From Desulfovibrio piger (GTDB lineage: Bacteria; Desulfobacterota; Desulfovibrionia; Desulfovibrionales; Desulfovibrionaceae), in the NCBI RefSeq assembly GCF_951793255.1, contig NZ_OX636706.1, positions 2,226,001 to 2,290,000 on the forward strand: 64,000 nucleotides of DNA, read 5' to 3'. The notes below the pieces were generated by a model. The model was not told the DNA's origin and ran no database searches. It worked only from the letters and a program-made list of their open reading frames with translations. The translations under genes were made by a program, and so were the position numbers. Below, piece by piece: positions 32,832-54,510 of this stretch (position 1 is its first letter; each line of letters starts with the position of its first letter).

Positions 32832-33497
32832 ATGAAAATTATTGACAATATCAATATTCTTCTTGGTGATGACCTCAAAAAAGCACTTGGAAGAAAGGGC
32901 CGTCTGAAAATAGCGGCTTCCTGTTTCTCCATGTACGCCTATGAGGCATTATGCAAAGAACTCAAGCACCTGGAAGCCTTTGAGTTCATATTTACGGAGC
33001 CGACATTTGTACCGGACGAGGCCGCAGGCAAGATCAAAAAAGAGCGGCGTGAATTTTTCATTCCCCGGCAGCATCGGGAAAGCAGTCTGTACGGCACGGA
33101 ATTTGAGATACAATTACGCAACAAGCTGACGCAACGGGCCATTGCCCGGGAATGCGCTGACTGGCTCCGGCGCAAAGCCACGTTTCGATCCAACCGGACA
33201 CAGGCTCCCATGCAGCAATTTGCCTGCGTGTCATCTCCGGAAGGAGAGACTGTCTACTGCGGCATTCAGGGATTCACGGCTGTAGAGCTTGGCTATCAGA
33301 AAGACAATGCCGTCTCCCGCATGATCAACTGTCTGGAGGAACAGCCCTTCACATCAACCTATCTTGCCCTGTTTGACCAGATTTGGAACAACACCGACCA
33401 GCTCCAGAACGTGACGGAAACAGTCTGCGACCATATCGCTTCCGTCTACACGGAGAATGCGCCGGAACGCATTTATTTTTGGCTCTTGACTAGCTGA
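32832..33497 (+). pseudogene. N-terminal fragment of a PLD-domain SNF2-type helicase
   Basis: Starts with ATG 32832 (CAGGAG upstream). The first 216 residues carry a phospholipase-D-like N-terminal domain (INILLGDDLKKALGRKGRLK ... FEFIFTEPTFV) and a middle region ending in ENAPERIYF. At this point related proteins continue into a helicase domain of several hundred residues. Here the frame runs into the terminal repeat of the IS1595 element, reads a few foreign residues (WLLTS) and stops. The remaining gene is missing on the other side, so it is a true truncation. The original role may have been defence or DNA processing on the element. Confidence 0.7.
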
Positions 33498-34220
33498 GAG
33501 GATTTTCTCTGAGCAGTTTTAGCACCAGAAGGTAAATGTTCTCTTGTCTATGATTAAACCGAAACTCACATTCTTTCAAATGGAGATAAAACGTTTGTTT
33601 TTGAAGGCCCCTAAAACGAACCAGCCGGGTTTTTGCATAGCTCCAAAAACTTTCTATCCCATTGATATGTGAGTGCTTATTGGAAAATTCATTGTGCGAA
33701 TGCTGGACGCGGAAGTGTTTTTGGTATCCCAAATCGACGAGCCCGTCATAACCTCGCCAACCATCGGAATGAATGACGCTTTCAAGGTCTACACGTCCAC
33801 GTATGATGCCCTGGAGAGTGGCTCTGGAGCAATCAGGAACGATTTCCGTATAGACGTTATCATTGCGTTTGAACAGGCCGAAAACAATGGTTTTTTCGCG
33901 TGCTCCACGGCCTCTGATGCCCCTGACCCGGCGAGCGCCGAAGTAGCTTTCATCAACCTCGACTTCCCCTTTGACGGGAGACTCCGCCTCGCAATAACGG
34001 GCAATTCTTTCCCGGAAAGCCGTCACATACCGGTTGACGGTGTTTCGGTTAACACCGGACAATTCCGCAATCTGTGAAGCTGTCAAATCAACGGAAAAAA
34101 GCTTCACAAGTTGCCGAATTTTTGCCTCGGAAATTCTTGAACGATATGCGTACTTGTTTTTCATTGCCATGGCTGCCTGGATAACCTTTTTAGGATATCT
34201 CAGCTAGTCAAGAGCCAAAA
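33477..34220 (-). mobile_element. IS1595-family (ISXO2-like) element
   Basis: A 744-bp element bounded by a perfect 23-bp inverted repeat (33477-33499 and 34198-34220; core GGCTCTTGACTAGCTGAGA). The expected 8-bp duplication is absent: the flanks read GCATTTAT on the left and TTAATAGC on the right. A deletion or recombination therefore took place at this copy after insertion. Confidence 0.85.
33490..34170 (-). CDS. IS1595-family transposase (ISXO2-like)
   Basis: A 226-residue DDE transposase, complete. HTH region SQIAELSGVNRNTVNRYVTAF, first Asp in EVDESYFGARRVRG, second Asp in VIHSDGWRGYDGLVDLGY, and His/Asn motif HSHNEFSNKHSHINGIESFWSYAK with Glu. This short form lacks an N-terminal zinc ribbon. 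It is likely active and related to the fragment at 28245. Confidence 0.88.
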   Translation of the reverse strand: MAMKNKYAYRSRISEAKIRQLVKLFSVDLTASQIAELSGVNRNTVNRYVTAFRERIARYCEAESPVKGEVEVDESYFGARRVRGIRGRGAREKTIVFGLFKRNDNVYTEIVPDCSRATLQGIIRGRVDLESVIHSDGWRGYDGLVDLGYQKHFRVQHSHNEFSNKHSHINGIESFWSYAKTRLVRFRGLQKQTFYLHLKECEFRFNHRQENIYLLVLKLLRENPLS

Positions 34221-36814: not shown

Positions 36815-36825
36815 GATACCCTGAA
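36815..36825 (+). repeat. Left arm-type integrase site GATACCCTGAA
   Basis: Identical to GATACCCTGAA at 50239-50249 on the other end. Two further GATACCC copies are at 50129-50135 and 50164-50170. The placement at both ends of the element suggests arm-binding sites for the DUF4102-type N-terminal domains of the integrases. Confidence 0.5.
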
Positions 36826-37007
36826 ATTTACCCTGTAAAATACTGGATGAGAAAAGCTGCTCCTAGTCAGTACCAGACAGAAATGAGGGGCGGCGCTGTA
36901 CCGGGATTGATCAGTATGTCCAAGGAACGAATAGGCTGGTAAGCTGCTTGCCGGGTAACCTTTTGCCTGCTAACCTTATATTTCAGAAATTTTTCATGGA
37001 GAAGAAA

Positions 37008-38513
37008 ATGGGGAAGCAGAGTACAAGCAATATTGGTTTTGAAAAACAGATATGGGATGCCGCCTGCGTTTTGCGTGGCAATCTGGATGCTTCTGAATAC
37101 AAATCCGTCGTGCTTGGGCTTATTTTTCTCAAGTACATATCCGATAGCTTTGAAGCCAAATATCAGGAGCTTCTCGCTGCTGGAGAGGGGGACGAGGAAG
37201 ATCGGGATGAATATACCTACGAAAATATTTTCTTCGTGCCTCCTTCTTCCCGCTGGTCTCGCATAGCGCAAGCGGCGCATACGCCGGAAATCGGTGTAGT
37301 TATTGATGAGGCTATGCGCGAGATTGAAAAGGAAAATTCGCGCCTCAAGGATATATTGCCCAAAAATTTTGCCCGCCCGGAGCTGGACAAGCGTCGCCTT
37401 GGGGATGTGGTGGATCTCTTCACCAATATCAAGATGATTGAACACGGCAATGAGAAAGATATTCTGGGGCGAACCTATGAATATTGCCTTTCCCGTTTTG
37501 CTGAGCAGGAAGGCAAGCTGGCTGGAGAATTTTACACGCCTTCCTGTGTAGTTCGTACCCTTGTGGAAATTTTACAGCCTTACAACGGCAGAGTGTATGA
37601 CCCATGCTGCGGTTCCGGCGGCATGTTCGTCCAGTCGGCAAAATTTGTCGAAAATCACGGCGGCACAATCAACACCATTTCCATTTTCGGGCAGGATTCC
37701 AATCCCACCACATGGAAGATGGCGCACATGAACCTTGCCATTAGGGGGATTGAAGCCAATCTTGGAAAATTTCATGCCGATACGTTTTTTGACGACAGGC
37801 ACCCCCAGCTCAAGGCGGACTTCATCATGGCTAATCCGCCCTTTAACCTCTCAGACTGGGGCGCGGACAAGCTGAAAGATGATGTGCGCTGGAAATACGG
37901 CCTTCCTCCGGCGGGAAATGCCAACTTTGCCTGGATGCAACACATGATTTTTCATCTGGCCCCACGGGGGAGGATCGGGCTTGTGCTGGCCAACGGCTCG
38001 CTTTCCTCGCAATCCAGCGGAGAGGGAGAAATCCGCAAAAAGATTATTGAAGATGATTTGGTGGATTGCATCATTGCCATGCCGCCGCAGCTTTTCTATA
38101 CCACCCAAATCCCCGTCTCCCTCTGGTTTCTGGCTAGAGACAAGAAACAGAAAGGAAAAACGCTATTTATGGATGCCCGGAATATGGGCACAATGGTGAC
38201 GCGAAAGTTACGAGAACTAACCGGAGAGGACATAGCGAAGCTGACGAAAACCTATGTCGCTTTTACCGAAGGTTCCCTTGAAGAGGTGAAAGGCTTTTGC
38301 GCTATTGCGGCAACGGCTGATATTGCCAAGCAGGATTATATCCTCACCCCCGGACGTTACGTGGGTATTGAAGAGCAAAAGGACGATGGCGAACCCTTTG
38401 AAGAGAAGATGGGGCGTCTGACAAAGGAACTCTCGGAACTGTTCCAGAAGTCCCATGAGCTGGAGGCACAGATTAAGAAACAGCTGGAGGCGATTGGGTA
38501 TGAAATATCGTAA
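37008..38513 (+). CDS. hsdM: Type I restriction-modification DNA methyltransferase subunit HsdM
   Basis: A 501-residue N6-adenine methyltransferase subunit. The N-terminal helical domain starts NIGFEKQIWDAACVLRGN, then the cofactor motif YDPCCGSGGMFVQSAKF, and the catalytic NPPF motif (ANPPFNLSDWG, Asn276). The start at ATG 37008 has GGAGAAG upstream. It methylates host DNA together with HsdS and forms the M2S core of the restriction complex. The hsdS start lies inside its last codons (38500), so the genes are coupled. Length is normal. Confidence 0.93.
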   Translation: MGKQSTSNIGFEKQIWDAACVLRGNLDASEYKSVVLGLIFLKYISDSFEAKYQELLAAGEGDEEDRDEYTYENIFFVPPSSRWSRIAQAAHTPEIGVVIDEAMREIEKENSRLKDILPKNFARPELDKRRLGDVVDLFTNIKMIEHGNEKDILGRTYEYCLSRFAEQEGKLAGEFYTPSCVVRTLVEILQPYNGRVYDPCCGSGGMFVQSAKFVENHGGTINTISIFGQDSNPTTWKMAHMNLAIRGIEANLGKFHADTFFDDRHPQLKADFIMANPPFNLSDWGADKLKDDVRWKYGLPPAGNANFAWMQHMIFHLAPRGRIGLVLANGSLSSQSSGEGEIRKKIIEDDLVDCIIAMPPQLFYTTQIPVSLWFLARDKKQKGKTLFMDARNMGTMVTRKLRELTGEDIAKLTKTYVAFTEGSLEEVKGFCAIAATADIAKQDYILTPGRYVGIEEQKDDGEPFEEKMGRLTKELSELFQKSHELEAQIKKQLEAIGYEIS

Positions 38514-39621
38514 ACTATCTGAACTATGCGAATATGCAAGTGACAAGATTTTAGTAAGTATATTATCTCGGCAAAATTATATTTCTACAGAAAATATGCT
38601 TCAAAATCGTGGTGGGATATGTGACGCAGAGATATTACCAAGTACATTGAAAGTATCTAATTTTGCAGAAAATGATATCCTTATTTCCAACATCAGACCA
38701 TATTTTAAGAAAATATGGAGAGCAAAATTTTGTGGCGGTTGTTCAAATGATATACTTGTAATGCGTGCAAAACAAAATTGCAATCCGATTTTTTTATATT
38801 ATATACTTTCTAGTGATAGTTTCTTTTCGTATGCTACACATACATCAAAGGGCACAAAAATGCCTCGCGGTGATAAAAAAGCTATTATGAATTATCAAGT
38901 TCCAGATCTTTCATATCAAGCTCAAAAAATAATAGGGGAATTCTTAAATGTCTTTGATCGCAAAATCGAACTGAACAACAAGCTAAATGATAATTTAGCT
39001 GAAATACTTCAAACGCTTTATCAGCAGCAGTTTTGCTATTCAAAAGGCACTGGTAATCAGGGGAGACTGGCCGATCTCTGTGACTACTCTAAAACAAAAG
39101 TTGCCGTAGCAGAACTTTCGCTTAGCACTTATTACTCAACAGAAAATATGCTACCTGGAAAAGCTGGTGCAGTAGATGCTGCAAGTTTGCCAACAACAGC
39201 ACAGGCGACAAAATGTCAGATTGGCGATGTTTTAATTTCTAATATCCGCCCCTACTTTAAGAAGATTGTCTACTGCCATTCTGATTGCGGCTGTTCTGCG
39301 GATGTTCTCTGCTTTACTCCTAAAGTGTCACAGTTGTCAGCCTATCTATATAGCACTCTATATGTGGATTCTTTTTTTGACTTTATGGTAGCGGGTTCAA
39401 AAGGAACTAAAATGCCGCGCGGCGATAAACAACAGATTATGGCTTATGTTATCCACATTCCCACTGAGGAAGAGATTAGAACATTCAATAAGCTTGCCAT
39501 ACCAATCTTGGGGCAAATGGAAAGCACTCATCGCGAAAATATGCGTCTATCATCTTTACGGGACAGCCTTCTTCCTAAACTCATGTCCGGCGAGCTGGAT
39601 GTCTCCGAACTCGACATTTAG
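38500..39621 (+). CDS. hsdS: Type I restriction specificity subunit HsdS with two similar target-recognition domains
   Basis: A 373-residue subunit. Two TRDs (about 20-140 and 205-325) each contain STENML, ISNIRPYFKKI and GTKMPRGDK in the same order, so the halves are close relatives. Helical spacers follow each (IIGEFLNVFDRKIELNNKLN; and MESTHRENMRLSSLRDSLLP). Each TRD reads one half of the bipartite site, so similar TRDs predict a nearly symmetric recognition sequence. The start at 38500 overlaps hsdM. The AT-rich sequence contrasts with hsdM, which is common for exchangeable specificity genes. Confidence 0.9.
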   Translation: MKYRKLSELCEYASDKILVSILSRQNYISTENMLQNRGGICDAEILPSTLKVSNFAENDILISNIRPYFKKIWRAKFCGGCSNDILVMRAKQNCNPIFLYYILSSDSFFSYATHTSKGTKMPRGDKKAIMNYQVPDLSYQAQKIIGEFLNVFDRKIELNNKLNDNLAEILQTLYQQQFCYSKGTGNQGRLADLCDYSKTKVAVAELSLSTYYSTENMLPGKAGAVDAASLPTTAQATKCQIGDVLISNIRPYFKKIVYCHSDCGCSADVLCFTPKVSQLSAYLYSTLYVDSFFDFMVAGSKGTKMPRGDKQQIMAYVIHIPTEEEIRTFNKLAIPILGQMESTHRENMRLSSLRDSLLPKLMSGELDVSELDI

Positions 39622-39709
39622 GCCGCTAAATTATCATTTATCGGCGGATATTGCCATTCTGACGGTTTCCTGCCATACCTGCAATGAGCGATAACGCGGA
39701 GAAAACGCC

Positions 39710-42700
39710 ATGTCGGAAAAATATTCAGAAAGTAATTATGAAAATGCCGTACTGGAGATTTTCAGAGCCTCGCTTGGCTATAACTATATCTATGGTCCTG
39801 ATTTTGAAAGGGATTACCATAAACCTTTCCATGAAGCAGCGTTGCGGGATGCCCTGCCGCGCCTCAATGCGCATTTGCCCCGTCAGGCTATTGCCGAAGC
39901 CCTTTCCAAACTGGAAAATCTGGAAAGTGGTTCGCTGCTTCAAAAAAACATGGTTTTCATGGATTATCTGCAAAACGGCATTCCTGTAAAATTTTTTGAA
40001 AACGGTACGGAACGTTCTTCCATTGTCCATCTGCTGGATTACAATGATCCATCAAAGAATAATTTTGTTGTTGCCAATCAGTGGACATTTATTGAGCATT
40101 CAGAAAAACGGCCAGATATTATCCTCTTTATCAATGGGCTTCCTCTGGTTGTTATAGAACTGAAGTCTCCTTCTCGTGAAGAGACGGATGCTTCCGCAGC
40201 GTACCGGCAACTGCGTAATTATTTCCATGAGATCCCTACCTTGTTTGCGTATAATGCCATCTGTGTCATGAGCGATATGACGACCTCAAAGGCAGGCACT
40301 ATTACCTCCGGTGAGGATCGCTTCATGGAGTGGAAAACAAAGGATGGAAGCTATGAAAATACGCAGTATGCGGATTTTGATACCTTTTTTGAGGGGATGT
40401 TCGAGAAGGAACGTTTTCTCGATATTCTGAAAAATTTTATCTGCTTCAATGTCGATGGGCAAAATACTTTCAAAATCCTTGCGGCCTATCACCAATATTT
40501 TGCTGTGAAAAAGGCTGTGTCCTCAACACTGACTGCTAGTGTTGGCAATGGGAAAGGCGGTGTCTTTTGGCATACTCAGGGAAGCGGGAAATCCCTCTCG
40601 ATGGTTTTCTATGCTCATGCCTTGCAAGAGGTGATGGAAAGCCCGACCATCGTTGTGCTGACAGACAGAAACGACCTTGACGACCAGCTGTATGGACAAT
40701 TTTCCCGCTGCCGCGATTTTTTGCGGCAAATTCCGCAGCAGGCAGAAAGCCGAAAGCATTTGCATGAGCTTTTGGCCAATCGACAGGCCAACGGTATCAT
40801 TTTTACCACCATGCAAAAGTTTGAGGAAAGTTCCGAGGCTTTATCTCTGCGAAAAAATATCGTCGTTATGGCGGATGAGGCACATCGCGGACATTATGGA
40901 TTGGTGCCCAGAATACAAACCCGCACACGGGAAGATGGCGAGGTGGAAACAAGAACAATAACAGGCTCAGCCAAAATCATTCGTGATAATCTGCCACATG
41001 CCACGTTTATTGGCTTTACCGGTACGCCAATATCCTCCAGAGATCGCAGCACACGAGAAGTGTTCGGCAATTACATTGATATATACGATATGACTCAGGC
41101 GGTCGAGGATGGAGCAACCCGCCCGGTATACTATGAAAGTCGTGTTGTCCATTTGAATCTTGATGCTGAGATTCTCAAACTCATTGACGCCGAGTATGAT
41201 TTGATGGCGCAAAACGCCGAGCCTTACGCCATCGAAAAAAGCAAGAAAGAACTTGGCAAGATGGAGGCCATTCTCGGAGCGGATCAAACACTGAACTCAT
41301 TAGTTGATGATATTCTTGAACATTATGAAGGAAACCGAGCGTTTTTGCTGACAGGCAAAGCCATGATAGTGGCCTATACACGCTCCATTGCCATGAAGAT
41401 TTACCACAAGATACTGGAACGGCGTCCTGACTGGACGGATAAGGTGGCAATCGTCATGACGCAGGGGAACAATGACCCGGAAGAATGGAGAAAAGTCATT
41501 GGAAATCAGGCCCACAAAGAGCATATGGCGCGTCTCTTCAAAGATAATGCCTCGTCCCTGAAAATTGCCATTGTCGTTGATATGTGGCTCACGGGGTTTG
41601 ACGTGCCATCTCTTGCCACCATGTACGTCTACAAGCCCATGTCCGGACATAACCTGATGCAGGCTATTGCCCGTGTAAACCGTGTGTTCGGCGACAAGGA
41701 AGGCGGGTTGGTGGTGGATTATGTGGGTATCGCATCGGCACTCAAACAGGCTATGCACGACTATACCGGACGAGACCAGAAAAACTACGGCGATACGGAC
41801 ATCAGCAAAGCGGCTCTGCCCAAATTTCAGGAAAAGCTGTCCATTTGCCGTGACTTTCTGCATGGTTTTGACTATGGGGCATTCCTGCACGGCAATGATC
41901 TGGATCGGGCGAAAAGCATCAGCGGCGCGGCCAACTTCCTGCTTGCAAAAAGCACTGCTGAGCATCAAGCCGGGGTTGATGACAAAGATACCAAGGAAAA
42001 ATTCATCAAAGAGGCCTTGCTGCTGCGGCAAGCTCTCTCTTTATGTGCGAGTTTGGTAGATGAGCTTACCCGCCTTGAAGCCGCTTTCTTTGAAGCCGTG
42101 CGCACTGTGCTGGTGCGTCTTGCCAGCGGAGGAACAGAGCAGAAGTTATCCCTTGATAAAATAAATGCCCGTATTAATGAGTTGCTGAAACAGAGTATTA
42201 AAAGTGATGGAGTCATCAATCTTTTTTCGGATGTTCAAAAAGGATTTTCACTTTTTGATCCAAAGTTTCTTGAAGAAATAGCCGGTATGAAAGAAAAGAA
42301 TCTGGCTATAGAAATACTGAAAAAGCTTATCGCTGAGCAGGTTTCGGTATACCGAAGAACAAATATTGTCAGATCGGAAAAATTTTCTGAAATCATTCAG
42401 CGCGCTATGAATCAGTATCTCAACGGTATGCTTACCAATGAAGAAGTAATTCAGGAACTCTTGAAGCTTGCTGGTGATATTACCGCTGGAAATGAAGAAG
42501 GTGAATCTCTTGGCCTTACGACAGAAGAACTGGCCTTTTATGATGCCTTGACAAAGCCTCAGGCTATCAAAGATTTTTATCAGCATGAAGAGTTGAAGTC
42601 ACTTACCAAAGAATTGACTGAACTATTGAGGAAAAATCGTACTATCGACTGGCAGAAGAAACAAAGCGCACGCGCCGGTATGAGGATACTTGTGAAGCGT

Positions 42701-42793
42701 CTTCTCAGACGTTACAAATATCCTCCTGAGGGTATGGAGGATGCTATCCAAACTGTGATGAAACAATGTGAATTATGGGTAGATAATCAATAG
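39710..42793 (+). CDS. hsdR: Type I restriction endonuclease subunit HsdR
   Basis: A 1027-residue motor-nuclease. N-terminal PD-(D/E)xK nuclease: RPDIILFINGLPLVVIELKS (about 133-152). SF2 translocase: Walker A TQGSGKS near 289, DEAH box MADEAHRGHYG near 388, FIGFTGTPIS, and motif VI QAIARVNRVFGDK. A C-terminal helical region contacts the methylase. The length is normal and no lesions are seen, so the system appears complete. The 88-bp gap after hsdS includes a GCGGAGAAAACGCC stretch before the ATG. Confidence 0.93.
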   Translation: MSEKYSESNYENAVLEIFRASLGYNYIYGPDFERDYHKPFHEAALRDALPRLNAHLPRQAIAEALSKLENLESGSLLQKNMVFMDYLQNGIPVKFFENGTERSSIVHLLDYNDPSKNNFVVANQWTFIEHSEKRPDIILFINGLPLVVIELKSPSREETDASAAYRQLRNYFHEIPTLFAYNAICVMSDMTTSKAGTITSGEDRFMEWKTKDGSYENTQYADFDTFFEGMFEKERFLDILKNFICFNVDGQNTFKILAAYHQYFAVKKAVSSTLTASVGNGKGGVFWHTQGSGKSLSMVFYAHALQEVMESPTIVVLTDRNDLDDQLYGQFSRCRDFLRQIPQQAESRKHLHELLANRQANGIIFTTMQKFEESSEALSLRKNIVVMADEAHRGHYGLVPRIQTRTREDGEVETRTITGSAKIIRDNLPHATFIGFTGTPISSRDRSTREVFGNYIDIYDMTQAVEDGATRPVYYESRVVHLNLDAEILKLIDAEYDLMAQNAEPYAIEKSKKELGKMEAILGADQTLNSLVDDILEHYEGNRAFLLTGKAMIVAYTRSIAMKIYHKILERRPDWTDKVAIVMTQGNNDPEEWRKVIGNQAHKEHMARLFKDNASSLKIAIVVDMWLTGFDVPSLATMYVYKPMSGHNLMQAIARVNRVFGDKEGGLVVDYVGIASALKQAMHDYTGRDQKNYGDTDISKAALPKFQEKLSICRDFLHGFDYGAFLHGNDLDRAKSISGAANFLLAKSTAEHQAGVDDKDTKEKFIKEALLLRQALSLCASLVDELTRLEAAFFEAVRTVLVRLASGGTEQKLSLDKINARINELLKQSIKSDGVINLFSDVQKGFSLFDPKFLEEIAGMKEKNLAIEILKKLIAEQVSVYRRTNIVRSEKFSEIIQRAMNQYLNGMLTNEEVIQELLKLAGDITAGNEEGESLGLTTEELAFYDALTKPQAIKDFYQHEELKSLTKELTELLRKNRTIDWQKKQSARAGMRILVKRLLRRYKYPPEGMEDAIQTVMKQCELWVDNQ

Positions 42794-43258: not shown

Positions 43259-43867
43259 TCAATATGTTATTAAATAAACAAACATGCTGCATCCTGTAAA
43301 AATAAGTAATAGTGCCGAGATTCCTTGTTTCCATATCCCCTTTTTTTCTTCGACGAAGCTCTTTGCGCTCAAAACGCCGCAAAATAACCCTGCCGCGAGA
43401 CACAGCCCGCTGATGAGCCAGCCTGAGGGCATGTGCAGAATTGCCGCCAGAGGAACATCCCGTCCGGTGTTGATACGGAAGCCCGCCCAGAGCATCAGAC
43501 TCCCGTAGGCCAGCAGGCAAATCAGAGCAAGCAGTCCCATCGGCACCAGCCTGTCGTATCGAATTTTCGAGGCAAGATTCCGCGATTCCTTCACCACACT
43601 GTTGGTAAGCCGGGCTTGGGCGGCGGCAGTTTCCTTTTCGGCGGCAGCGGCCATGCTGTCCACGATGGCTCTGGACGCTCCGGCGATTTTTTCCGGCAAC
43701 GCTTCATAGTAGATGCGTTGATATTCCATCGCGGCCAGCAGCGGCCAGAGCGCGTCATCCTCCCGGAGATTCAGCCTGTTGCCGATTTCCCGCAAACGCG
43801 CCGCTTCCGCTTCGGACAATTCCCTGCCGCACGCCTTGCCGAGATCAATCACAGTATCCATGCTCAT
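43259..43867 (-). CDS. Membrane protein of the mobilization operon
   Basis: A 202-residue protein. The N-terminal 110 residues are helical and soluble (EAEAARLREIGNRLNLREDD ... ASRAIVDSMAAAAEKETAAAQARL). Then three TM segments: MGLLALICLLAYGSLMLWAG, WLISGLCLAAGLFCGVL and GISALLLIFTGCSMFVYLI. Its ATG overlaps the stop of the ATPase gene (ATGA), so the two are coupled. It is similar in layout to accessory proteins of small mobilizable elements. The function is unknown; it may anchor the relaxosome to the coupling protein. Confidence 0.55.
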   Translation of the reverse strand: MSMDTVIDLGKACGRELSEAEAARLREIGNRLNLREDDALWPLLAAMEYQRIYYEALPEKIAGASRAIVDSMAAAAEKETAAAQARLTNSVVKESRNLASKIRYDRLVPMGLLALICLLAYGSLMLWAGFRINTGRDVPLAAILHMPSGWLISGLCLAAGLFCGVLSAKSFVEEKKGIWKQGISALLLIFTGCSMFVYLITY

Positions 43868-44568
43868 GACGCTTCCCCCATGACGGAATCAAACATGTTC
43901 GCGCACACTCTCCGCCAGCGCTGCAATTCCACCCGTGTGCCGATGGGCATTTCAGTCTGGGCGGCGCGGATGGACATGCGTCTGGAATACAGCCAGTCGG
44001 CCACGCGGTTGCCGACCGCCGGAAAGTCCAGCGTCCTGCCGTTCTTCTCCACCGCTTCCCGTGCCTTGGAACTGTTATACATATCAAAACGCCGCGCTTC
44101 ACCGAAATACAGATTCCGGCAAACGTGGATGGGCACGTCCGTGAATACTTCCTGAAAGGAGTGCAGAAGCTCGATGGAATCGCGGTGACGATTGATTATC
44201 CAGAAGACAACCAGTTCCCGCCGCATCTCTCGCAGAGCTTGCTTCATGATGTCGCCGTGACTGGCCGTGCTGGTCTTGGTACGGGCGGCGGCATTGATGA
44301 CCACGGCATGATCCGGGTAGTTCTGTACAGTGTCCAGCAAATCCGCCCAGCCGTCGGCGTCGTCCAGACAGTTCAGACGGCAGAGCAGATTCGGCAGGGC
44401 AAGCTCCTTGTGCGCCTTGAAGACATCAGGGTTGTCGGTATCGGTATCCACAAGCAGGACGTTTGCGTTTCTGTTGAGAAGATAGTCCACAAGGGCGAAG
44501 GAAAAGAGGCTCTTGCCGACGCCGCCCTTGCTGCCGCCGACATAGAATACGCTGTTCTGAATGTTCAT
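43864..44568 (-). CDS. ParA/MinD-like P-loop ATPase of the mobilization operon
   Basis: A 234-residue nucleotide-binding protein. The deviant Walker A GGSKGGVGKSLFSFALVDYL is at residues 10-29, followed by VLLVDTDTDNPDVFKAH, and later VVFWIINRHRDSIELLHSFQ. ATG 44568 has GGAGC seven bases upstream; a TTG at 44574 is less likely. The position between a RHH-like/TraK-like gene and a membrane protein, within the relaxase operon, suggests a role in DNA transfer or maintenance rather than chromosome partition. It differs from the backbone parA (31033). Confidence 0.7.
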   Translation of the reverse strand: MNIQNSVFYVGGSKGGVGKSLFSFALVDYLLNRNANVLLVDTDTDNPDVFKAHKELALPNLLCRLNCLDDADGWADLLDTVQNYPDHAVVINAAARTKTSTASHGDIMKQALREMRRELVVFWIINRHRDSIELLHSFQEVFTDVPIHVCRNLYFGEARRFDMYNSSKAREAVEKNGRTLDFPAVGNRVADWLYSRRMSIRAAQTEMPIGTRVELQRWRRVCANMFDSVMGEAS

Positions 44569-44570
44569 GA

Positions 44571-44942
44571 TCAAAGCTCCGAATCGGGTTTGTCCGGCGT
44601 GTAGAAGTCCGGGATTTCTTCCTGTGCGTGGGACGTGACGGGAGGAGCCGCGACGGGTTTCGCGGTTTCGGGCCGGGGCTTCGGCTCACGTTTTCGCGAA
44701 GCCGCCTTCGCGGGAAGCACCTTTGCCCTGATGACGGGCGCGGGAATGACCACGTTGCCCTGGGCCAAGATGTCCGCCAGCTCCTTCACCGTGTATCCCT
44801 TTTCAAACGCTTTCAGGATATTGGCGTTGAGCAGTTCGGCGGCTTCCTCCCGTGTCTTGCCGAGATTTTTGTCCGGCAGGTCGTCAAGGATTTTCCGCAT
44901 GGCATTGATGTCTTTCACCGGAATGCGTTTGAACTTTCCCAT
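44571..44942 (-). CDS. Small accessory mobilization protein (TraK/MobC-like length)
   Basis: A 123-residue protein: N-terminal helices (DINAMRKILDDLPDKNL ... EEAAELLNANILKAFEKGYT), then an HTH-like VKELADILAQGNVVIPAPVI, then a Lys/Pro/Ala-rich tail (SRKREPKPRPETAKP). The folded part recalls the family of small DNA-binding relaxosome proteins such as TraK, but identity is not certain. It lies between the relaxase and the ATPase on the same strand and 12 bp after the relaxase stop. Confidence 0.6.
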   Translation of the reverse strand: MGKFKRIPVKDINAMRKILDDLPDKNLGKTREEAAELLNANILKAFEKGYTVKELADILAQGNVVIPAPVIRAKVLPAKAASRKREPKPRPETAKPVAAPPVTSHAQEEIPDFYTPDKPDSEL

Positions 44943-44954
44943 GCGCGTCGCTCC

Positions 44955-46169
44955 CTATCGCATCCGCATACGCGGTCGGTTCTGCCGTTCGCCTTCTATG
45001 CGCCGTTTTTCAAGGTCGCCAGCAAGGTCTGCAAGCTGCTGTACACTTCGCTGACATCGGTGAACAATCGCTTCAAGGTGCGCAGTTCCGTCTGAATCAG
45101 CATCTGCCTGTCCTCCAGTACGTCGATCCTCGTGCCGAAGGCCGTCAGTCGGGCGTTGCAGTTCTCCTCCATCCGTTTCAGGCTTTGCATCAGCATCCGT
45201 TCGGTTTCGGTCATGAAGGGGCTCCTCCTGAAGCTGGGGCAAAAGAAGGGCTTCCTCGTCAGGGAGCTGTTTCCATTTTGCCGGATAGCGTTTGATGTTG
45301 CAGGCGGCGCGTTTTTCAATGACGCGCTCAAAAGCCGGTTGCAGGCGGGCGACCATGCGCCGTGCTGTTTCCTTTTTCTTTTCTTCGGATTCTTCTTCCT
45401 GAGCGACTTTGGGTGTCCAGCCTCTGGCGTAAAAACCTCCCCGGAAGCGCATCTTCATGCCGCTGTTCGGGGCAATGACGCTGATGTAGTCCCTGCCTTC
45501 GCGGTTGATGCTCAGCCCCTGTTCCTTCAGGGCGCTCAGAATATCTTCCCGGTTCCGGACAAGTCCCTGCGTCACTTTTTCCTTTAGGAAAGCATGGATA
45601 ACCTCTTTGGCCCGGTCGCGGTCGCTTTCTCTGATTTCCTTGCCCCATCTCGCCATTCGCGCCTTGAACAGGTTGGCTTTTTTCGGAAGCTCATCCCTTG
45701 CCCGCGCCGGGTCGTCAGGCCGCGCCCAGCCTTCGCGCCAGTTGAACAGGTCGCGGAACACGTCAAAGTCCTTTTGCCAGCCGGGAGGACAAGCATTGAA
45801 ATCCTTGCCGCTGGAAAGCTCCAGGCGCGGAATGAGGAAATGCAGCTCGTGATGCCCGGCATGGGTATGCCTCACCCAGAGGATATTGCGCTGATCCGCG
45901 TCCAGACCGGCGAAGGCCACCCGCTCGAAAGCGTCCATGACTTCCTCTTCCTGTGCCTCGCTGATCTTCTCATCCGGGTGCCATGACAGAACGCCGGAAG
46001 TGAATTTCCATCGCCGCTCTATGCTGTCGATAAGCGCGCGGGTCATGACTGGATCGCCGCGCAGCACCTGGGGCGGGGCTGTGTCTCTCCCCGGATAATC
46101 CGGGCGTACAAGATAGCGGCTGGGCTTGTCGCCTTCTCCGGTGCCGTGCGGAAAGACCTTCATCAGCAT
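44955..46169 (-). CDS. mobA: Relaxase (MobA/MbeA-type, MOB-P class)
   Basis: A 404-residue nicking enzyme. Motif I with the probable catalytic Tyr in KPSRYLV (Tyr19), and the metal-binding motif VRHTHAGHHELHFLIPR (residues 99-115) with the HxxHELHF pattern of the ColE1-like (MbeA) relaxases. The C-terminal third is charged and helical (EEESEEKKKETARRM...). It cuts oriT and leads the strand through the coupling protein of a helper. The start overlaps the mobC stop. A second protein is encoded within its last part in another frame (44996-45214). Confidence 0.88.
   Translation of the reverse strand: MLMKVFPHGTGEGDKPSRYLVRPDYPGRDTAPPQVLRGDPVMTRALIDSIERRWKFTSGVLSWHPDEKISEAQEEEVMDAFERVAFAGLDADQRNILWVRHTHAGHHELHFLIPRLELSSGKDFNACPPGWQKDFDVFRDLFNWREGWARPDDPARARDELPKKANLFKARMARWGKEIRESDRDRAKEVIHAFLKEKVTQGLVRNREDILSALKEQGLSINREGRDYISVIAPNSGMKMRFRGGFYARGWTPKVAQEEESEEKKKETARRMVARLQPAFERVIEKRAACNIKRYPAKWKQLPDEEALLLPQLQEEPLHDRNRTDADAKPETDGGELQRPTDGLRHEDRRTGGQADADSDGTAHLEAIVHRCQRSVQQLADLAGDLEKRRIEGERQNRPRMRMR
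44996..45214 (-). CDS. Nested small coiled-coil protein inside the relaxase gene (MbeB/MbeD-like)
   Basis: A 72-residue protein in a different frame within the relaxase gene. AGGAGGAG at seven bases before ATG 45214 is one of the best ribosome-binding sites in the element and has no purpose for the relaxase frame. The protein is a heptad-like helix: MTETERMLMQSLKRMEENC, then LTAFGTRIDVLEDRQMLI and LRTLKRLF. ColE1 mobilization genes mbeB and mbeD lie likewise inside mbeA, so the analogy is close. A longer in-frame extension upstream is unlikely. Confidence 0.65.
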   Translation of the reverse strand: MTETERMLMQSLKRMEENCNARLTAFGTRIDVLEDRQMLIQTELRTLKRLFTDVSEVYSSLQTLLATLKNGA

Positions 46170-46513
46170 GGTTCCGCCTCCGGTTCATCTTCCGTTGAGG
46201 CGCATGATGCGAACTCGATAATGCGCTGTTCGATGCCCGCCAGCGCCACCAATACCTCCACGGCTTCCGCCGCGCGTTTATAGGTGTTGGCCCATCTCGC
46301 AAGTTGATTGATGTTCGCGCCGATGCGTGCCAGTTCCCGCAACCGCCGTTTCTCTTCCGGCGTTTTCCGCAGACGGATGCCAAGGCAGGTCTGGCGGATG
46401 TACTCCGACATGCTCATGCCGTGCAGCCCCGCGTTGAGGCGGAGGATGTCGCGCTCCTCCGGGAACACACGCACGACGACAGAGGCAGTGCGAACGGGTT
46501 TGACGCGTTTCAC
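46163..46513 (-). CDS. mobC: Mobilization accessory protein MobC (MbeC-like)
   Basis: A 116-residue relaxosome protein. The N-terminal ribbon-helix-helix (ASVVVRVFPEERDILRLNAG ... MSMSEYIRQTCL) precedes the MobC signature: LARIGANINQLARWANTYK. It binds oriT and helps the relaxase nick. Its stop overlaps the relaxase start (ATGCTGA). The upstream oriT-like region supports the role. Confidence 0.88.
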   Translation of the reverse strand: MKRVKPVRTASVVVRVFPEERDILRLNAGLHGMSMSEYIRQTCLGIRLRKTPEEKRRLRELARIGANINQLARWANTYKRAAEAVEVLVALAGIEQRIIEFASCASTEDEPEAEPC

Positions 46514-47231: not shown

Positions 47232-47435
47232 TCATTTTTCCTCCGGTTCGGCGGTGAGCTTTTCCAGAAGTGCGGCAATATCCGCCGCTCTCCACGCCGT
47301 TGTGCGCGGGCCGAGTTTGACGGGTTTCGGATAGCGGCCGCTTTTGCAGCCCGCCCACCACGCGCTGCGGCTGACGGGAATGAGCGCGAGTACCTGCGGC
47401 AAACGAAGCAGAGCGTTATTGGGTATATTTTGCAT
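47232..47435 (-). CDS. AlpA-like excisionase/regulator
   Basis: A 67-residue MerR-like HTH protein of the AlpA family: LLRLPQVLALIPVSRSAWWA, then GRYPKPVKLGPRTTAWRAAD. This is the standard pattern (RLPxVxxxxGxSRSxxY...FPxPxxLGxRxxxWxxxxI). AGGAGGAACTCC precedes the ATG. Such proteins regulate integrase genes or act as excision factors in integrative elements. It lies 276 bp from the integrase pair. Confidence 0.85.
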   Translation of the reverse strand: MQNIPNNALLRLPQVLALIPVSRSAWWAGCKSGRYPKPVKLGPRTTAWRAADIAALLEKLTAEPEEK

Positions 47436-47711: not shown

Positions 47712-48917
47712 CTATAGCATGTCATTGTCCGTCTGTGTTGCTTCGCGCAAGCCGTCCAGATAGTCGGCCCATGCCTGCATCATCTGGTGCCGCTGGGGAA
47801 GATATTGGGCATGGTTGTAGGCGAACCGGGAAGTATTCTTTTCCTTGTGGGCCAGCTGACGCTCAATCCAGTCAGGCTCAAAGCCCTGTTCATTGAGCAG
47901 GGTTGAGGCCATAGCCCGGAAGCCATGAATACACATCTCTTCCTTGCCGTATCCCATAGCGCGTAACGCCTGTAAGGGCGTGGAGTAGTGGATAGGCTTC
48001 CTCACACTGTTCCTTGAGGGGAAAAGGTATGTTCCGCCTCCGGTGACGGCGTGAAGCTCTTTGAGAATGGCAACGGCTTGTGATGACAGCGGAACAATGT
48101 GCGGCTTTCGCATTTTCATGCGTTCGGCCGGTATGTGCCATTCCCGCGTTTCCAGATTGAACTCGCTCCATTCGGAACGGACAAGTTCGGCGGAACGGAC
48201 AAAGAACAGGGGAAAAAGGCGCAGCGCGCATTTGACCTGAAAATGTCCGTGATAGTTGTCCAGCCTGTTCAGAAGCACGCCGATTTTTTCGGCGGAAACG
48301 ATGGTGGCCCTGTGCCTGCCCCGATGCGGACGTATGGCTCCGCGAAGATCGGCGGCAATGTTGCGCGGCACTCTGCCTGTGGCAACCGCATAGCGGAAAA
48401 CCATGCCGCAATACTGGATGATTCTGTGGGCGATAAGTTCCTTTCCCTTTCTTTCAAGCGGCTTGAGTATCAGCAGCAGGTCTTGCGCCGTGACCTCGGA
48501 AATGGGCTTCCGTTTCAAGGCGGGGAAAAGATAGTGTTTGAACGTGTGCAGTTTTCTCCCTCTGTCTTTTTCGGAATTGTGGACTGTCTGCGTATCGTGC
48601 CATTCACGGACAACATGCTCGAAGGTATTGGCTTCCGCGAGGAGGGCGGCGTTTTTCATCTCCTTCTTGCGTTTGCCCGGATCAATGCCGTCGGCAAGCA
48701 GCTTTTTCGCCTCATTTCGCTTTGTCCGGGCATCCTTCAGGGAGACAATCGGATATTCCCCGAAGCTGAGCAGCTTTTCCTTATCGTTGAAACGGTACGC
48801 CATACGCCAGAGTTTTGAGCCGGTTTTGGCGACATAGAGGTACAGGCCGCCGCCGTCCGCGTACTTTTTCGCTTTTTCAGCGGGCTTCAGATTCCTGATT
48901 TGCGTGTCGGTCAGCAT
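47712..48917 (-). CDS. int: Tyrosine integrase 1 (DUF4102 type, complete active site)
   Basis: A 401-residue phage-type integrase. The arm-binding DUF4102 domain (MLTDTQIRNLKPAEKAKKYA, DGGGLYLYV, SFGEYPIVSLKDAR) is followed by the catalytic domain: Arg in VRSAELVRSEWSEF, HxxR in IHGFRAMASTLLNE, the second His in LAHKEK, and the Tyr nucleophile in HAQYLPQRHQMM. AGGGAGG precedes ATG 48917, which overlaps the integrase 2 stop (ATGCTGA). It should integrate and excise the element at the TTGTAGTT core. Confidence 0.92.
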   Translation of the reverse strand: MLTDTQIRNLKPAEKAKKYADGGGLYLYVAKTGSKLWRMAYRFNDKEKLLSFGEYPIVSLKDARTKRNEAKKLLADGIDPGKRKKEMKNAALLAEANTFEHVVREWHDTQTVHNSEKDRGRKLHTFKHYLFPALKRKPISEVTAQDLLLILKPLERKGKELIAHRIIQYCGMVFRYAVATGRVPRNIAADLRGAIRPHRGRHRATIVSAEKIGVLLNRLDNYHGHFQVKCALRLFPLFFVRSAELVRSEWSEFNLETREWHIPAERMKMRKPHIVPLSSQAVAILKELHAVTGGGTYLFPSRNSVRKPIHYSTPLQALRAMGYGKEEMCIHGFRAMASTLLNEQGFEPDWIERQLAHKEKNTSRFAYNHAQYLPQRHQMMQAWADYLDGLREATQTDNDML

Positions 48918-50110
48918 GACGTACCTCCCTGACTGGATGTATCCTGCAACGCCTTGTCCCGCAGAAGAAAAAGATATCTGGCCCATTCCCGCATCATGGT
49001 TTTTCTTTCCGACAGATGCCGCCACGGGTCAAAACGTGTGCGCCCGGAGTGTGCCAGCTGCACGTCGATGATGTTCTGTTCGTACCCAAGGTCGAACAGT
49101 AATTTGGCGACAAGAGAGCGGATTCCGTCAAAGGACAGTTTTACGCCGTCATATCCGCGTCTGCGCAGGGAAACGGTGATGGTGGATATGTCGATGGGGC
49201 GTTCAGGAGAACGGACGCCGGGGAACAGCAGGGTTCCATGACCGGAGTATTCCTTCAGTTCCCTGAGTATTTTGACTGCCTGTGGCGCGAGAGGCACAAC
49301 ATGCTCATGTTTCGTCGCCATGCGTTTCGCGGGGATAACCCAGAGCCTGCGGGAGAAATCAAATTCATTCCATGCCGCACAGCGCAATTCACCGGAACGG
49401 ACGAACAGCAGGGGAACCAGCCGCAGGGCGCACCGCACAGGGAAATAGCCGTCATGCCGCTCAAGGTTCAGCATAATCTGACCGAGTTTCCCGGCGTCGA
49501 GCGCGGCGGCTCTGTGCCCTGTCTGTCTGGAACGCAGCGAAGCGGGCAGGTCTTCCGTGGAGTTCCGCGCGGTCTTGCCGGTGGCGACGGCATAGCGGCA
49601 TATCTGGCCGCAGACATCCGTCAGCCTGCGTCCTCCGCGCAATTTCCCGGATTGCCGCAACGGTTCGATGGCGCTCATAATGTCCTCGGCGGTAACGTCT
49701 GTCATGGCCTTGCCGCCGAAGACGGGAAAGAAATATTCCGTCATCCCCCGCATCATGAAGGAGCGATAGCGGTTTTTACAGTGAAGGGTTTCCCGCTCGT
49801 ACCATTCCATAGCCACGGATTGGAACGTAGCGTTGGAGGCGGATGTCCGTGCGGCCTTCCTGTGTTCCGCCGGGTCGATGCCGTCCTTGAGCAGGGCCTT
49901 GGCTTCATCCCGGCGTTGCCGTGCGGCGCGGAGTGATACCTGAGGATATTCACCGAAGGAAAGGAGCTTGGCCTTTCGCTCAAAACGGTACGCCAGCCGC
50001 CAGAGTTTTTTGCCGCTGGTCGGAATGAACAGGAACAGCCCACCGCCGTCCGCATACTTTTTCGGTTTGTCGGCGGCTTTCAAGCCTTGAATAATGTGGT
50101 CATCCAGCAT
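48911..50110 (-). CDS. Tyrosine integrase 2, lacking the catalytic Tyr and the HxxR His
   Basis: A 399-residue paralogue with the same DUF4102 N-terminus (KKYADGGGLFLFI, SFGEYPQVSLRAAR) and catalytic fold: RSGELRCAAWNEFDF keeps the first Arg. But HxxR is DGIR (SFDGIRSLVAKLL), and the Tyr position is His (DPWRHLSERKTMM aligned with NHAQYLPQRHQMM). Codons are GAC and CAT, so the Tyr change is one transition. It keeps the other segments intact over 399 codons, which argues for selection. It may act as a DNA-bending or regulatory subunit of integrase 1. It is the promoter-proximal gene, 270 bp from attR. Confidence 0.85.
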   Translation of the reverse strand: MLDDHIIQGLKAADKPKKYADGGGLFLFIPTSGKKLWRLAYRFERKAKLLSFGEYPQVSLRAARQRRDEAKALLKDGIDPAEHRKAARTSASNATFQSVAMEWYERETLHCKNRYRSFMMRGMTEYFFPVFGGKAMTDVTAEDIMSAIEPLRQSGKLRGGRRLTDVCGQICRYAVATGKTARNSTEDLPASLRSRQTGHRAAALDAGKLGQIMLNLERHDGYFPVRCALRLVPLLFVRSGELRCAAWNEFDFSRRLWVIPAKRMATKHEHVVPLAPQAVKILRELKEYSGHGTLLFPGVRSPERPIDISTITVSLRRRGYDGVKLSFDGIRSLVAKLLFDLGYEQNIIDVQLAHSGRTRFDPWRHLSERKTMMREWARYLFLLRDKALQDTSSQGGTSC

Positions 50111-50249: not shown

Positions 50250-53200
50250 TAATACCCGGAAAACAGCGGGATGCAAGGCGCTATTTCTGGACTTCTCTGG
50301 ATGACTGTTTTAATATAACATATTGAAATATAAAATATTATAACTCTAAACAAGTCTATTTGGACGTAAAATGAGAGTTTGTAGTTTACCCCGGTGGCAT
50401 CAAGTTCCCAGCCGTTGGTAATCTGGCCGAATGTGGATGCCCAGGCATCAAAATGCTCGATGCCCTTGGCCTGCAATTCCTCATACTGCATATAACGCTG
50501 GAGCGTGTAGACTTCGGCTATCGTGTTCGATATGGGCGTGCCGGTCAGGAAGTAGACGCCGCGCCCTTCATTCTTGCGTTGCAGATAGCGGCACTTGATG
50601 AACAGATCGAGGGCCTTGGCAGAGCCGGTGATATTGCCCAGACCGGAAACATTCATGGTCGTCTGATAGGCAAGATTCTTGAATTCGTGACTTTCATCCA
50701 CAAAGAGCGCATCAACGCCCAGATCGGCAAAATCAACGGACGTATCTTTCCTGCCCGTTCCGGCCAGCAGAAGCTCATAGCGGGCCTCCATCTTTTCCCG
50801 CTGTTTCTCAAGCTGCTTGATCGTCGCCCGTCCGCCTTTGGCTTCTTTGACGGCTCCGATGGCGTCCACGACAGCGTCAATCTGCTCCTTCAGAATTTCC
50901 TGCTGAATGTCACGGGGCATGTCGATCTTGCGGAAGGAACTGTGCGCGACCACAACGGCATCCCAGTCCCCCGTTGCAATACGGGAAAACAGGCGCTCCC
51001 GGTTCTGTTTGGTGAAGTCCGTCTTGTCTGCCACAAGAATATGCGCATCGGGATAAAGCTTGTAGAACTCATCCCGCCACTGATGCAGCAGATGGTTGGG
51101 GACGACGACCATCGGCTTGGAGACAAAGCCCATGCGCTTGGATTCCATGATGGTGGCAATGCAGGCCATTGTCTTGCCCGCGCCGACAACATGATCATAA
51201 AGGGCGGTTCCTTCCTGAATGGCTCTCCAGACAACGTCCTTCTGATGCGGGCGGAGCTTCACTTCTGCGGAGGCTCCGACCAGCTCAAGGTGGGAACCGT
51301 CATAGCGGGGCGGCACATGCGTATTGAAGCGGTCATTATACAATCTGGCCAGACGCACCCGCCGGTCGTCATCCGTCCATATCCAGTCCACAAAGGTCTG
51401 CCGGATTTCATCGGCCTTTTGCATGGCAGCCGCCGTCAGCTCCTGATCCAGCTCCATAATCGGCCTGCCCTGTTCATCCCTCTGGCCGGTATCCTTCTCC
51501 ACCTTGATGGGCTTGTTCATGAGCAGGGCTTCGATAATCCTGCTTGCCGGATATTCGGGAATGCCCCAGACGCTGGTATTCAGGGCCCCGTCGGTAATAC
51601 CCACATGCGCATTCCATCTGCCGAGCGTCGGCAGATATTCCACGCGTTGAAAGCCGTGCCCGCCATGCAGATGCTCAATGAATGCGTGCACCACGTCAGG
51701 CGGCAGCCAAGTTGAGCCAAGTTTTACCCCGATATCCACGGCTTCGATGTCGGGGGGCTGCGCAGCTGTCAGGGCTTCCACATTGCTTAAAAAACGGCTG
51801 TCCGTTCTGGCGGCTTCCTGTGCCAGTCGCAACTTTTCCCGGACATTGCCGGTCAGATATTTGTCGCGTATCTCCCAGAGTTCCGTCCCAGGATTGAGAA
51901 AAATCAGCCCCTGCCCCTGCAGCTCCTGCCGCACAGTGTCGGCAGGCTTCCCAAGGAGCTGCTCCATACGGGCAAAGTCCACCTTGCCGCTTTCCCTCAA
52001 GGCAATAAGTAGCGCATCCTTGGGACTGTCGGCAGTCTGCGCTGTTTCCGCCGGTTTAAGAACGCGCTGCCGGAAGATGGCCGCCTTTCGTGCGGAAGCC
52101 GGTCTGGCGGCCCTGCCGGTCTTGCGGGCCATATCCGGGGAAATGCCCTTGTCATACTCCATTTCCAGAGATTCCAGCAGGGCATGTTCCGGGTCTTCCC
52201 GCATAAGACTTCTGTTTGTCTGGGAATTGAGATGGCCGTATTTTCTGACAAAGGTGTCATACTGCGTATTGAGCCTCTGTCGCAGCGAGGCCATGCGCCC
52301 TTCATCGCCGCTCCCCTTTTCCTCATTGAGCAGCTCGCGCACGCTGTCCCTGATTTGAATCATAGAAATCAGACGTTGCCGGGCAGACTCGCTCTTTGTG
52401 GAAACAGGTTCATAGCCGCCGTCGCCAAAGTTGCCGGAGGTCTTGAAAACGATTTTTCTGCTTCGGGGTTCGAGGCAGAATGCCCCCATTTTCAGCGCCT
52501 GGAAGTAGGCGGAGTCAATAAACTCCCGGTTCAGCGTCTGTGAGGCGGGCGCTTTTTCCTGCTGTTGCTCTCGCGGCCTGAACTGTGCCGCAGGCAGGAT
52601 CGCAAGGCGGGACTCGATCTCCTGTCCCAAATCCGTAGCGGGACTGTCTTTGACGCAGTTCAGCGCATCGGCAAACATGCCCCCGGAGTAGACCATTCTC
52701 CCGATAATCTGCTCCGGGTGTGCGGCAAAGAAGCTGTTGACGACAGCAGGCCGCCTGATGCCCTGCTTGAGGTCGTCAACCTCAATTTCTGACGTGGTAA
52801 TCCAGTCCCGGCTGCGCTTGTTTTCGCCGTTGTGCTTCTGGAAAAAGACAATATCCGTCGTAACGTCCGTCAGGGCATTCTGACGGAATGCCGTCTCCGG
52901 CAGGCGCACAGCCCCCAGAAAATCAGCCTGATCGGCAATATACTCACGGGCGGACGAGTCTGCCGCATCCATGAAATAGCGGCTGACGACAAATGCCGCT
53001 ATGCCGCCCTCACGGAGCAGCCGCATGGACTTGGCAAGGAAGTAGTTATGGATGGAAAACTTTTTCAGTTCCGGGAAATCCGGATCATACAGGGACTGCT
53101 GGCCAAAGGGCGGATTCCCTATGATGAGATCAAAGTTCGGAGAAAGAAGACCGGAAGATTGAAAGCCCTTATTGTTATGGCTTGATTTGGGATACAAATA

Positions 53201-54454
53201 GCTGGCGATAGCCGCCGTCGTGGGATCAAGCTCCACGGCCAGAAAACGCGCATTGAACTCTTCCGGGCAAAGGCCGATAAAATTACCGATGCCCGCCGAC
53301 GGTTCAAGGACATTCAGTTTTTTCCCGGAACCGACGCCCAGCCGGGAAAGTCCCTGATACATGGCCCGGATGACGGTTTCCGAAGTGTAATGCGCATCCT
53401 GGGTGGAACGGCGGGCGGCAGCATAATCACCCGGAGAAAGAATCCCTTGCAGCTCCCGATATTCTGCCGCCCACTGCTCATTCTTCGCATCAAAGACCTG
53501 CGGCAGGCCACCCCAGCCGACAAAGCGCACCAGCGTCTTCTTCTCTTCCGGGGTGGCCAGTTTTACGCCGCCAGCCTGTAGCTGTTGCAACAGGCGAATG
53601 GCGGCCACATTGTCCGCGTATTTGCTTTTTGCGCCGCCGACGCCGAGACGGTCTTCCGGCGTTATGCGGTAGTTGGCAGGTTCAGTTCCACCCCGCAGCT
53701 CTCCAGAATTTCCCAATCCGACATCCCCCTCAGGCTCGCCTGCCGGGCTGTCTCGCTGCACAGAATCCTTCTCTCCAGAGATTGCTGCTGATCGAGGCGA
53801 ATCATCAAGTCGAGATTGTCTCTCGCTTCCAGCTTCTTCAGTTCGTCCGGGCAGTTCAGCGCCCAGCGATCCAGAATCAAATAGGCTGAATTGGGAAATC
53901 CCCCCGTCTTTACTTCCTCTATTGTTTCCGGCTTGAGTACGGTTCTTGCGATGTCCAGCGGGTTTGTCGGCTTGTCCAGCATGTTGTCGCTCCAAAGAAG
54001 GGGAATGTTGTTGTCTGAAGGCTGCAACTTCCTGAATCGTCAGGAAGTTGTGGTTATTTTGCAGGAACAGTTCTTCCGGGGTGCTGCCGTCTCCGTCAAC
54101 GGTCTGCATGAATTCGGGATTACGGCTGTACATCCGTACCCCGTTTTCCATTTCATATACCGTCTCTCCGCGTCCGTTGAGGCCAAGCGGTCTCATCGTT
54201 TTCGGAGAATCGCCGAGCAGCTCGAACCAGCCTCTGGAAGGCCTGGTCTGCCTGTCTTCCTGAATGTTCTGTTGGTCTGATGCGGGAATAACGCTTGCAG
54301 GCCGCTGTTCATCCCTTGGAAAAGACGCCGACTGCGCCTCTTCCCGCATGTCATCCTGAATATTTTCTTTTCGTATCTGCTCAATATGATGCACCATCGC
54401 ATCGAACAGAGACATCTGGCGGGGATCATGGGTCTGCTTGCGTCGTCTGGCCAT
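50219..54454 (-). pseudogene. 5' part of the giant methylase-helicase gene (DarB-like), interrupted by the mobilizable element
   Basis: About 1356 native codons: a Gln-rich leader, a methyltransferase domain with motif I VLEPSAGIGNF and NPPF catalytic motif (IIGNPPFGQQ) around residues 380-470, a helical region, and helicase lobe 1 with LRPHQKDVVWRAI, Walker A HVVGAGKTMA and Walker B LFVDESHEFKN. Native sequence ends at ELDATGVNYKL at attR; about 56 residues of element-derived tail follow. With the 3' half it would be about 2000 residues, the size and domain order of large MGE methylase-helicases such as P1 DarB, which protects DNA from type I restriction. Start ATG 54454 follows GAGGGA. Confidence 0.85.
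50376..50389. repeat. attR of the integrative mobilizable element
   Basis: AGTTTGTAGTTTAC; partner of attL at 36144 (see there). It lies at the last native codons (V-N-Y-K-L) of the 5' half of the giant gene. Confidence 0.75.
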
Positions 54455-54510
54455 CACTTTCGTCCCTCAAGGCGCAGGAAGCGAAAGCGCGTGGCGCGCC
54501 CTGTCGATTC

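Follow-up and report, generated by a model that had tools for sequence, protein, structure and literature searches.

Two P4-type tyrosine-recombinase genes, int1 and int2, occupy the minus strand at 47712-50110 of the window, the whole 64,000-nucleotide stretch of the Desulfovibrio piger genome that was analysed (Table 1). They are transcribed with int2 first and int1 second, and were correctly described in the initial annotation as paralogous genes overlapping by 7 bp, their products being 44% identical. A ribosome-binding-like sequence for Int1, GGGAGG, lies inside the 3' end of int2 and reads GAGAGG in one of five copies of the pair. Arm-DNA-bind_3, Phage_int_M and Phage_integrase were detected by Pfam above cut-off in both proteins, and by this predicted domain architecture Int1 is an ordinary P4-type integrase; Int2 and the Int of P4 are 35.5% identical. 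The two are the only integrase-like frames among window frames of at least 120 aa, no third recombinase being found there.

Table 1. Positions in the window of the integrase pair, of the surrounding element and of the gene that it interrupts.
Feature	Position	Strand	Description
Int2	48911..50110	-	399 aa; P4-type tyrosine recombinase paralogue, dead active site
Int1	47712..48917	-	401 aa counted from ATG; P4-type tyrosine recombinase, active site intact
int2/int1 overlap	48911..48917	-	7 bp, ATGCTGA; same overlap in 5/5 copies
Host gene, N-terminal part	50387..54457	-	N6-methylase/SNF2 helicase, interrupted
Host gene, C-terminal part	34208..36146	-	Helicase_C, interrupted
attL core	50379..50386	-	AACTACAA; junction with N-terminal part of host SNF2/methylase gene
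attR core	36147..36154	-	AACTACAA; junction with C-terminal part of host SNF2/methylase gene
Four GGGTAT repeats	50257-50252, 50245-50240, 50170-50165, 50135-50130	-	presumed arm-type sites, motif match only
Promoter-like sequence	50230-50203	-	flanked by GGGTAT repeats
GGGTAA/GGGTAT pair	36816..36833	-	12 bp spacing; presumed right-arm sites, motif match only
AlpA-family small regulator	47232..47435	-	Pfam
NikA/MobC-like relaxosome protein	46163..46513	-	
MobA/VirD2-like relaxase	44955..46169	-	
ParA-like ATPase	43864..44574	-	
Type I restriction-modification cargo	36948..42793	+	HsdM 36948-38513, HsdS 38455-39621, HsdR 39710-42793
IS200-type transposase (Y1_Tnp)	36290-36724		between presumed right-arm sites and attR

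The identity of the catalytic residues is well established for the tyrosine recombinase family. Int1 harbors the complete set, R-K-H-R-H-Y, and the same columns read R-A-D-R-H-F in the window Int2. The catalytic Lys is replaced by Ala265, the His of the HxxR motif by Asp328 (within D-G-I-R, a substitution already seen in the initial annotation) and the nucleophilic Tyr by Phe360. The annotation was mistaken in placing a His at the latter position. This His (residue 365 of the window Int2) aligns with a later, non-catalytic Tyr of the 'QYL' stretch, which is still a Tyr in two of five Int2 copies; since the alignment runs ungapped from QYLPER back to Phe360, the Tyr column of Int2 is Phe360, ahead of which the alignment opens a four-residue gap in Int2 relative to Int1.

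Int2 retained both its fold and its length, as the annotation had claimed: it measures 399 aa against 401, shares the three Pfam domains with Int1 and yields an AlphaFold model that matches known recombinases. The mean pLDDT and pTM were 83.3 and 0.50 for Int2, 88.5 and 0.60 for Int1, and the order of helices and strands is almost identical in the two models. The Int2 model was matched to lambda Int (1z19; Z 14.9, rmsd 7.3, 248 aligned), to the Tn1549 Int (6en2; Z 15.1, rmsd 7.3, 255 aligned), to 6emy (Z 14.5, rmsd 7.5, 254 aligned) and to the P4-like arm domain of the HPI integrase (3jtz; Z 13.8, rmsd 0.9, 77 aligned). As 6emy is the Tyr-to-Phe form of the Tn1549 integrase on DNA, such a change can spare DNA binding in that enzyme. 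By its Pfam domains and its model, Int2 retains the recombinase fold and the predicted DNA-binding domains.

Losses in Int2 are unevenly distributed over its domains. Among columns conserved at 90% or more in 45 intact relatives, the arm domain of Int2 kept all 24; its core-binding domain lost 2 of 12 and its catalytic domain 17 of 61, with 13 of these 17 falling in residues 328-363, a clustering for which the tests were picked after the pattern was seen. Int1 loses 4 of 100 conserved columns when scored against the 40 other intact rows. The total loss of Int2 is not unique, since 15-16 columns are also lost from the second integrases of loci L039 and L040, which have all six catalytic residues. 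Int2 is set apart by having lost the very residues of catalysis and by the way its losses cluster.

The same pair, with the same overlap and the same losses, is found in five distinct genomes, a comparison that the initial annotation had suggested. Searching 348 genomes of the window's order with an Int2 profile gave five Int2 places at 917-923 bits, the next best match reaching 424, and the four other copies are 89-95% identical to the window Int2. The active-site profile is R-A-D-R-[H/R]-F in all five distinct genes, the second active-site His (354) being an Arg in two of them; the nucleophilic Tyr, the His of HxxR and the Lys are missing throughout. R-K-H-R-H-Y was found in 59/59 other distinct integrase rows kept, the five Int1 genes included. 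This check covers the fetched loci, after removal of 11 of 75 distinct frames that were shorter than 330 aa or below 150 bits; the removed frames include two distant XerC-like ones that were gapped at the Tyr column in an earlier check with fewer loci, and a truncated one that lacked the first Arg in it. The pattern shared by the Int2 genes is not a product of chance or of sequencing error. A scan of GTDB contigs, seeded with only two short peptides and possibly excluding the window's own record, returned three loci (CAJTFO010000010.1 of a Desulfovibrionaceae bacterium, Desulfovibrio sp. ZJ369 and Candidatus Mailhella merdavium), all already counted among the five copies (G025, G002 and G238).

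No relative was obtained from viral contigs by a single-protein scan; an alignment scan of these contigs gave seven, at 23-40% identity and all intact at the six catalytic residues, three of which (L062-L064) were kept in the final residue check. In the plasmid and phage collections, all matches (783 and 423 records) stayed below 60% identity. As the close orthologues are all dead (5/5) and the intact relatives examined are less than 50% identical, the loss is old and inherited. Local decay, which the annotation would have recognized by Int2 homologues with intact sites, was not upheld and is ruled out by the five orthologues together with their dN/dS.

Averaged over 10 pairs, this ratio (NG86) amounts to 0.192 in Int2 (bootstrap 0.14-0.25) and to 0.128 in Int1 (0.09-0.17), figures of limited power that come from five close sequences and non-independent pairs. 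By domain, the arm, core-binding and catalytic values are 0.118, 0.386 and 0.161 in Int2, and 0.037, 0.360 and 0.107 in Int1. Variable sites of int2 number 44, 30 and 109 at codon positions 1, 2 and 3, and the reading frame is open in all five copies. Since the five Int2 share their losses, divergence under purifying selection most simply came after these losses, and retention of the pair in five genomes suggests that the dead copy is still functional.

Int2 could nevertheless be regarded as a functionless relic in decay, left by a tandem duplication or by an integrase that was replaced, given that it lost three to four catalytic residues, that its stem branch is long (1.58 changes per site) and that a single-integrase sister element demonstrates the need of the backbone for one enzyme only. 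We consider this very improbable in view of the open frames, a dN/dS of 0.19, changes mostly at third positions and conserved-column losses concentrated in the active-site region; moreover, no stop codon was observed in the five copies for about 15 expected under neutrality, a rough and assumption-laden estimate. Similarly, it is hard to believe that the Int2 protein is irrelevant and that the gene is kept only for the translational coupling of int1. The 7 bp overlap and the ribosome-binding-like sequence in the last part of int2, present in 5/5 copies, would agree with it, but coupling would not preserve the amino acids of the arm domain (dN/dS 0.118) or of the catalytic domain (0.161).

The pair belongs to an integrative and mobilizable element (IME) of about 14.2 kb found in gut Desulfovibrionaceae, which possesses its own integrase, attL and attR, a relaxase and a NikA/MobC protein, and for which empty sites exist. 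These natural empty sites revealed the 8 bp att core, which had escaped a search for direct repeats because of its length limit of 11. In addition to the genes of Table 1, the element encodes a small protein between relaxase and ParA and an uncharacterised protein after ParA. The AlpA protein is likely the directionality factor. No conjugation gene was detected among the longer ORFs of the element, to which the scan applied; genes for a coupling protein and a DotM-like protein are located beyond the att sites. The number of GGGTAT motifs did not clearly differ between elements with the pair and elements with a single integrase. Other copies align by blastn from about 43.4 kb across the integrases into the host gene, leaving the restriction system outside the block, and genome G237 holds a second two-ended copy of about 17.2 kb. 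A group II intron reverse transcriptase/maturase (55360-57237) lies beside the interrupted gene, and the blastn alignment to copies L037 and L061 breaks in the stretch around it. An IS1595-type transposase (33490-34170) is found immediately past the C-terminal part of the interrupted gene.

The host gene itself is part of a larger conjugative element that also encodes a coupling protein, a DotM-like protein and a topoisomerase. An insertion of this kind was observed in 6 of 29 homologous places in the 348 genomes, the remaining 23 being only partly checked as intact. Six occupied sites (the five pairs and G019, counted though only its left end is seen) are interspersed with eight empty ones on the host-gene tree, which needs six state changes, at least five of them forced by starred branches. 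The sister of the window's site is an empty site 97% identical to it, and the occupied and empty copies of G025 are likewise sisters. This interspersion makes it very likely that the element moved since Int2 died. Homologous recombination between conjugative elements could explain part of the changes between occupied and empty. The window and G025 are 73.8% identical over the 1000 bases of host gene before the core and 92.0% in int2. G019 (L053, 1-330) carries a more divergent element with the same att site and a similar left end, the first gene of which begins like int2 (MLDEKLIQR) before the contig ends about 28 bases into it; no further close copy was found in the G019 genome.

Related elements of the same integrase clade provide a natural comparison. 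L083 (genome G029; 11074-12333) has the same ParA-relaxase-NikA-AlpA backbone (ParA 80%, relaxase 64%, NikA 74%) with a single, intact integrase, and interrupts a gene whose remaining part resembles a coupling protein, for which AAA/HerA matches are weak and below cut-off. L085 (upstream of 2897) is inserted at the same point of a similar gene, and L093 (G237; 1-380) has a single intact integrase soon after a match to a different part of the SNF2/methylase gene. Several elements of the clade thus prey on genes of conjugative elements. Int2 was only found in the lineage that uses the SNF2/methylase att site and reactions of this class do not generally require it, since L083 has one intact integrase only.

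The most likely role of Int2 is to bind DNA at the att sites as a partner or a regulator of Int1, with no catalysis of its own. We see about an even chance for the more precise proposal that this maintained dead paralogue, in an overlapping unit with the active Int1, serves as its DNA-binding partner. Int2 would occupy the GGGTAT arm-type sites and core sites beside Int1, and the complexes at att would be mixed, with the chemistry performed by Int1 and the architecture, stoichiometry or direction provided by Int2, in a ratio of the two proteins that would be set by translational coupling. The putative Int1-Int2 mixed synaptic complex is plausible, and the division of labour advanced in the initial annotation gains support from the purifying selection on Int2 and its constant position upstream of Int1.

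The main alternative, a repressor role at the att/promoter region, accounts for most of the same facts nearly as well. It is a possible, if less favored, explanation that Int2 represses its own operon at the GGGTAT sites of attL and limits Int1, staying outside the recombination complex. The gene int2 is promoter-proximal and a promoter-like sequence lies between GGGTAT repeats, but the 3 promoter-like matches obtained lie close to what shuffling gives (mean 1.3, sd 1.0). Integrases with a promoter overlapping attL are often negatively autoregulated, as described for IntS of KplE1, which offers a precedent for repression at attL (PMC2951348), although an active integrase that can repress itself makes a dead copy unnecessary. 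Another precedent is MrpR of SPbeta, reported as a protein of the tyrosine-recombinase fold that turned into a repressor on losing its recombinase function (PMC10516654). Among the structural matches of the Int2 model is the phage repressor SroF, at a level no better than Cre and below lambda Int. Finally, the catalytic domain of Int2 is under constraint (dN/dS 0.161), which argues against mere repression, even if, as MrpR shows, this domain can serve a repressor as well.

Int2 might otherwise interfere, by blocking either the target or att sites against incoming relatives or the excision by Int1. It keeps all family-conserved arm columns and could therefore compete for the same sites, and other elements of the clade also target genes of these conjugative elements. 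We find this doubtful; G025 and G238, which each carry an occupied as well as an apparently uninterrupted target gene, speak neither for nor against it. A variant of the DNA-binding partner, to which we would grant a small probability, is an intasome that is always mixed, with naturally dead subunits making up half of its protomers, so that Int1 could exchange only one strand pair and would leave a Holliday junction. Replication or a host resolvase would then finish the junction. A single strand-pair exchange, with the Holliday junction finished by the host, is known for the CTX phage. Replicative resolution has been described for integron integrases (PMC4792948). If such an intasome exists, integration would depend on host replication and its direction would be biased.

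Dead partners with a recombinase fold are already known, as are IMEs inserted in snf2 or traG with serine integrases. The nearest precedent with experimental support is GinC, a degenerate recombinase of a multi-recombinase operon, reported as essential for the excision and integration of GInts (PMC5385486). Int2 resembles it in lacking catalytic residues beside an active recombinase at the end of an integrating element (PMC5385486, PMC10214605). GInts are described with three recombinase-like genes and ginD (ginABCD) and as putatively non-mobilizable (PMC10214605), whereas the element in the window has two integrase genes, a relaxase, AlpA and P4-type arm domains, and Int2, unlike GinC, is a clear full-length P4-type paralogue. 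With only two integrase-like frames, followed by AlpA and mobilization genes, the element was not assigned to GInts. It is not a strand-biased circularizing integrative element (SE) either, having one active and one dead integrase. RIT elements consist of three recombinases in tandem. Assignment to them was rejected because the window holds two integrase genes only. Their RitA, RitB and RitC are tabulated in PMC10214605. In the SE module intA-tfp-intB-srap, Tfp has a recombinase fold without RHRY, and its knockout was reported as unobtainable (PMC10214605). Like Tfp, Int2 is a non-catalytic gene with a recombinase fold and an overlap suggesting translational coupling; as described there, SEs differ by a four-gene module with tfp between active recombinases, a restriction to Gammaproteobacteria and a putatively non-mobilizable state (PMC10214605).

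MrpR (YopR) shares with Int2 a recombinase fold with lost recombinase function, but is described with a core-binding and a catalytic domain only, keeps the Tyr and Lys that Int2 lost, and represses a prophage with a serine recombinase, a setting unlike that of Int2 (PMC10516654). P4 Int and IntS exhibit the same architecture and arm domain as Int1 and Int2, Int2 alone being without catalytic residues. Streptococcal IMEs sit in snf2 or traG of Tn5252-type ICEs (PMC5357655, PMC5704250). Similarly, the present element uses a fixed site in a conserved SNF2-helicase gene of a conjugative element, and the related L083 and L085 lie in a coupling-protein-like gene; the streptococcal elements are reported with serine integrases in Firmicute hosts, those described here having P4-type tyrosine integrases in Desulfovibrionaceae (PMC5357655, PMC5704250). 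No active/dead P4-type pair in a relaxase-bearing element was found in the literature searched, from which subscription journals were mostly absent.

In the laboratory, Cre, XerH and lambda Int are inactivated by changes of Tyr to Phe and of Lys to Ala (PMC10516654). Nature has fixed both types of change in Int2 and retained the protein beside an active enzyme. As related single-integrase elements provide a ready comparison, two genes and short att sites make the role of a non-catalytic recombinase testable. Should Int2 govern direction or site choice, it would also help to control integrases that serve as tools.

The origin of the pair may lie in a duplication in place or in an assembly from two elements. 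Int2 adjoins in the tree the integrases of L009 and L011 (91/79), located in a coupling-protein-like gene, and Int1 adjoins that of L093 (94/81); a common clade of Int1 and Int2 is not rejected (p-AU 0.096). As the five copies give different trees for Int1 and Int2, inheritance as one unit is not clear. Other tandem pairs occur in the same genus, at L039 (8077-10710), L040 (8676-11324), L041 (470-4181) and L038 (7447-11054); both members of these pairs are intact at the six catalytic residues, and the second member belongs to a more distant lineage.
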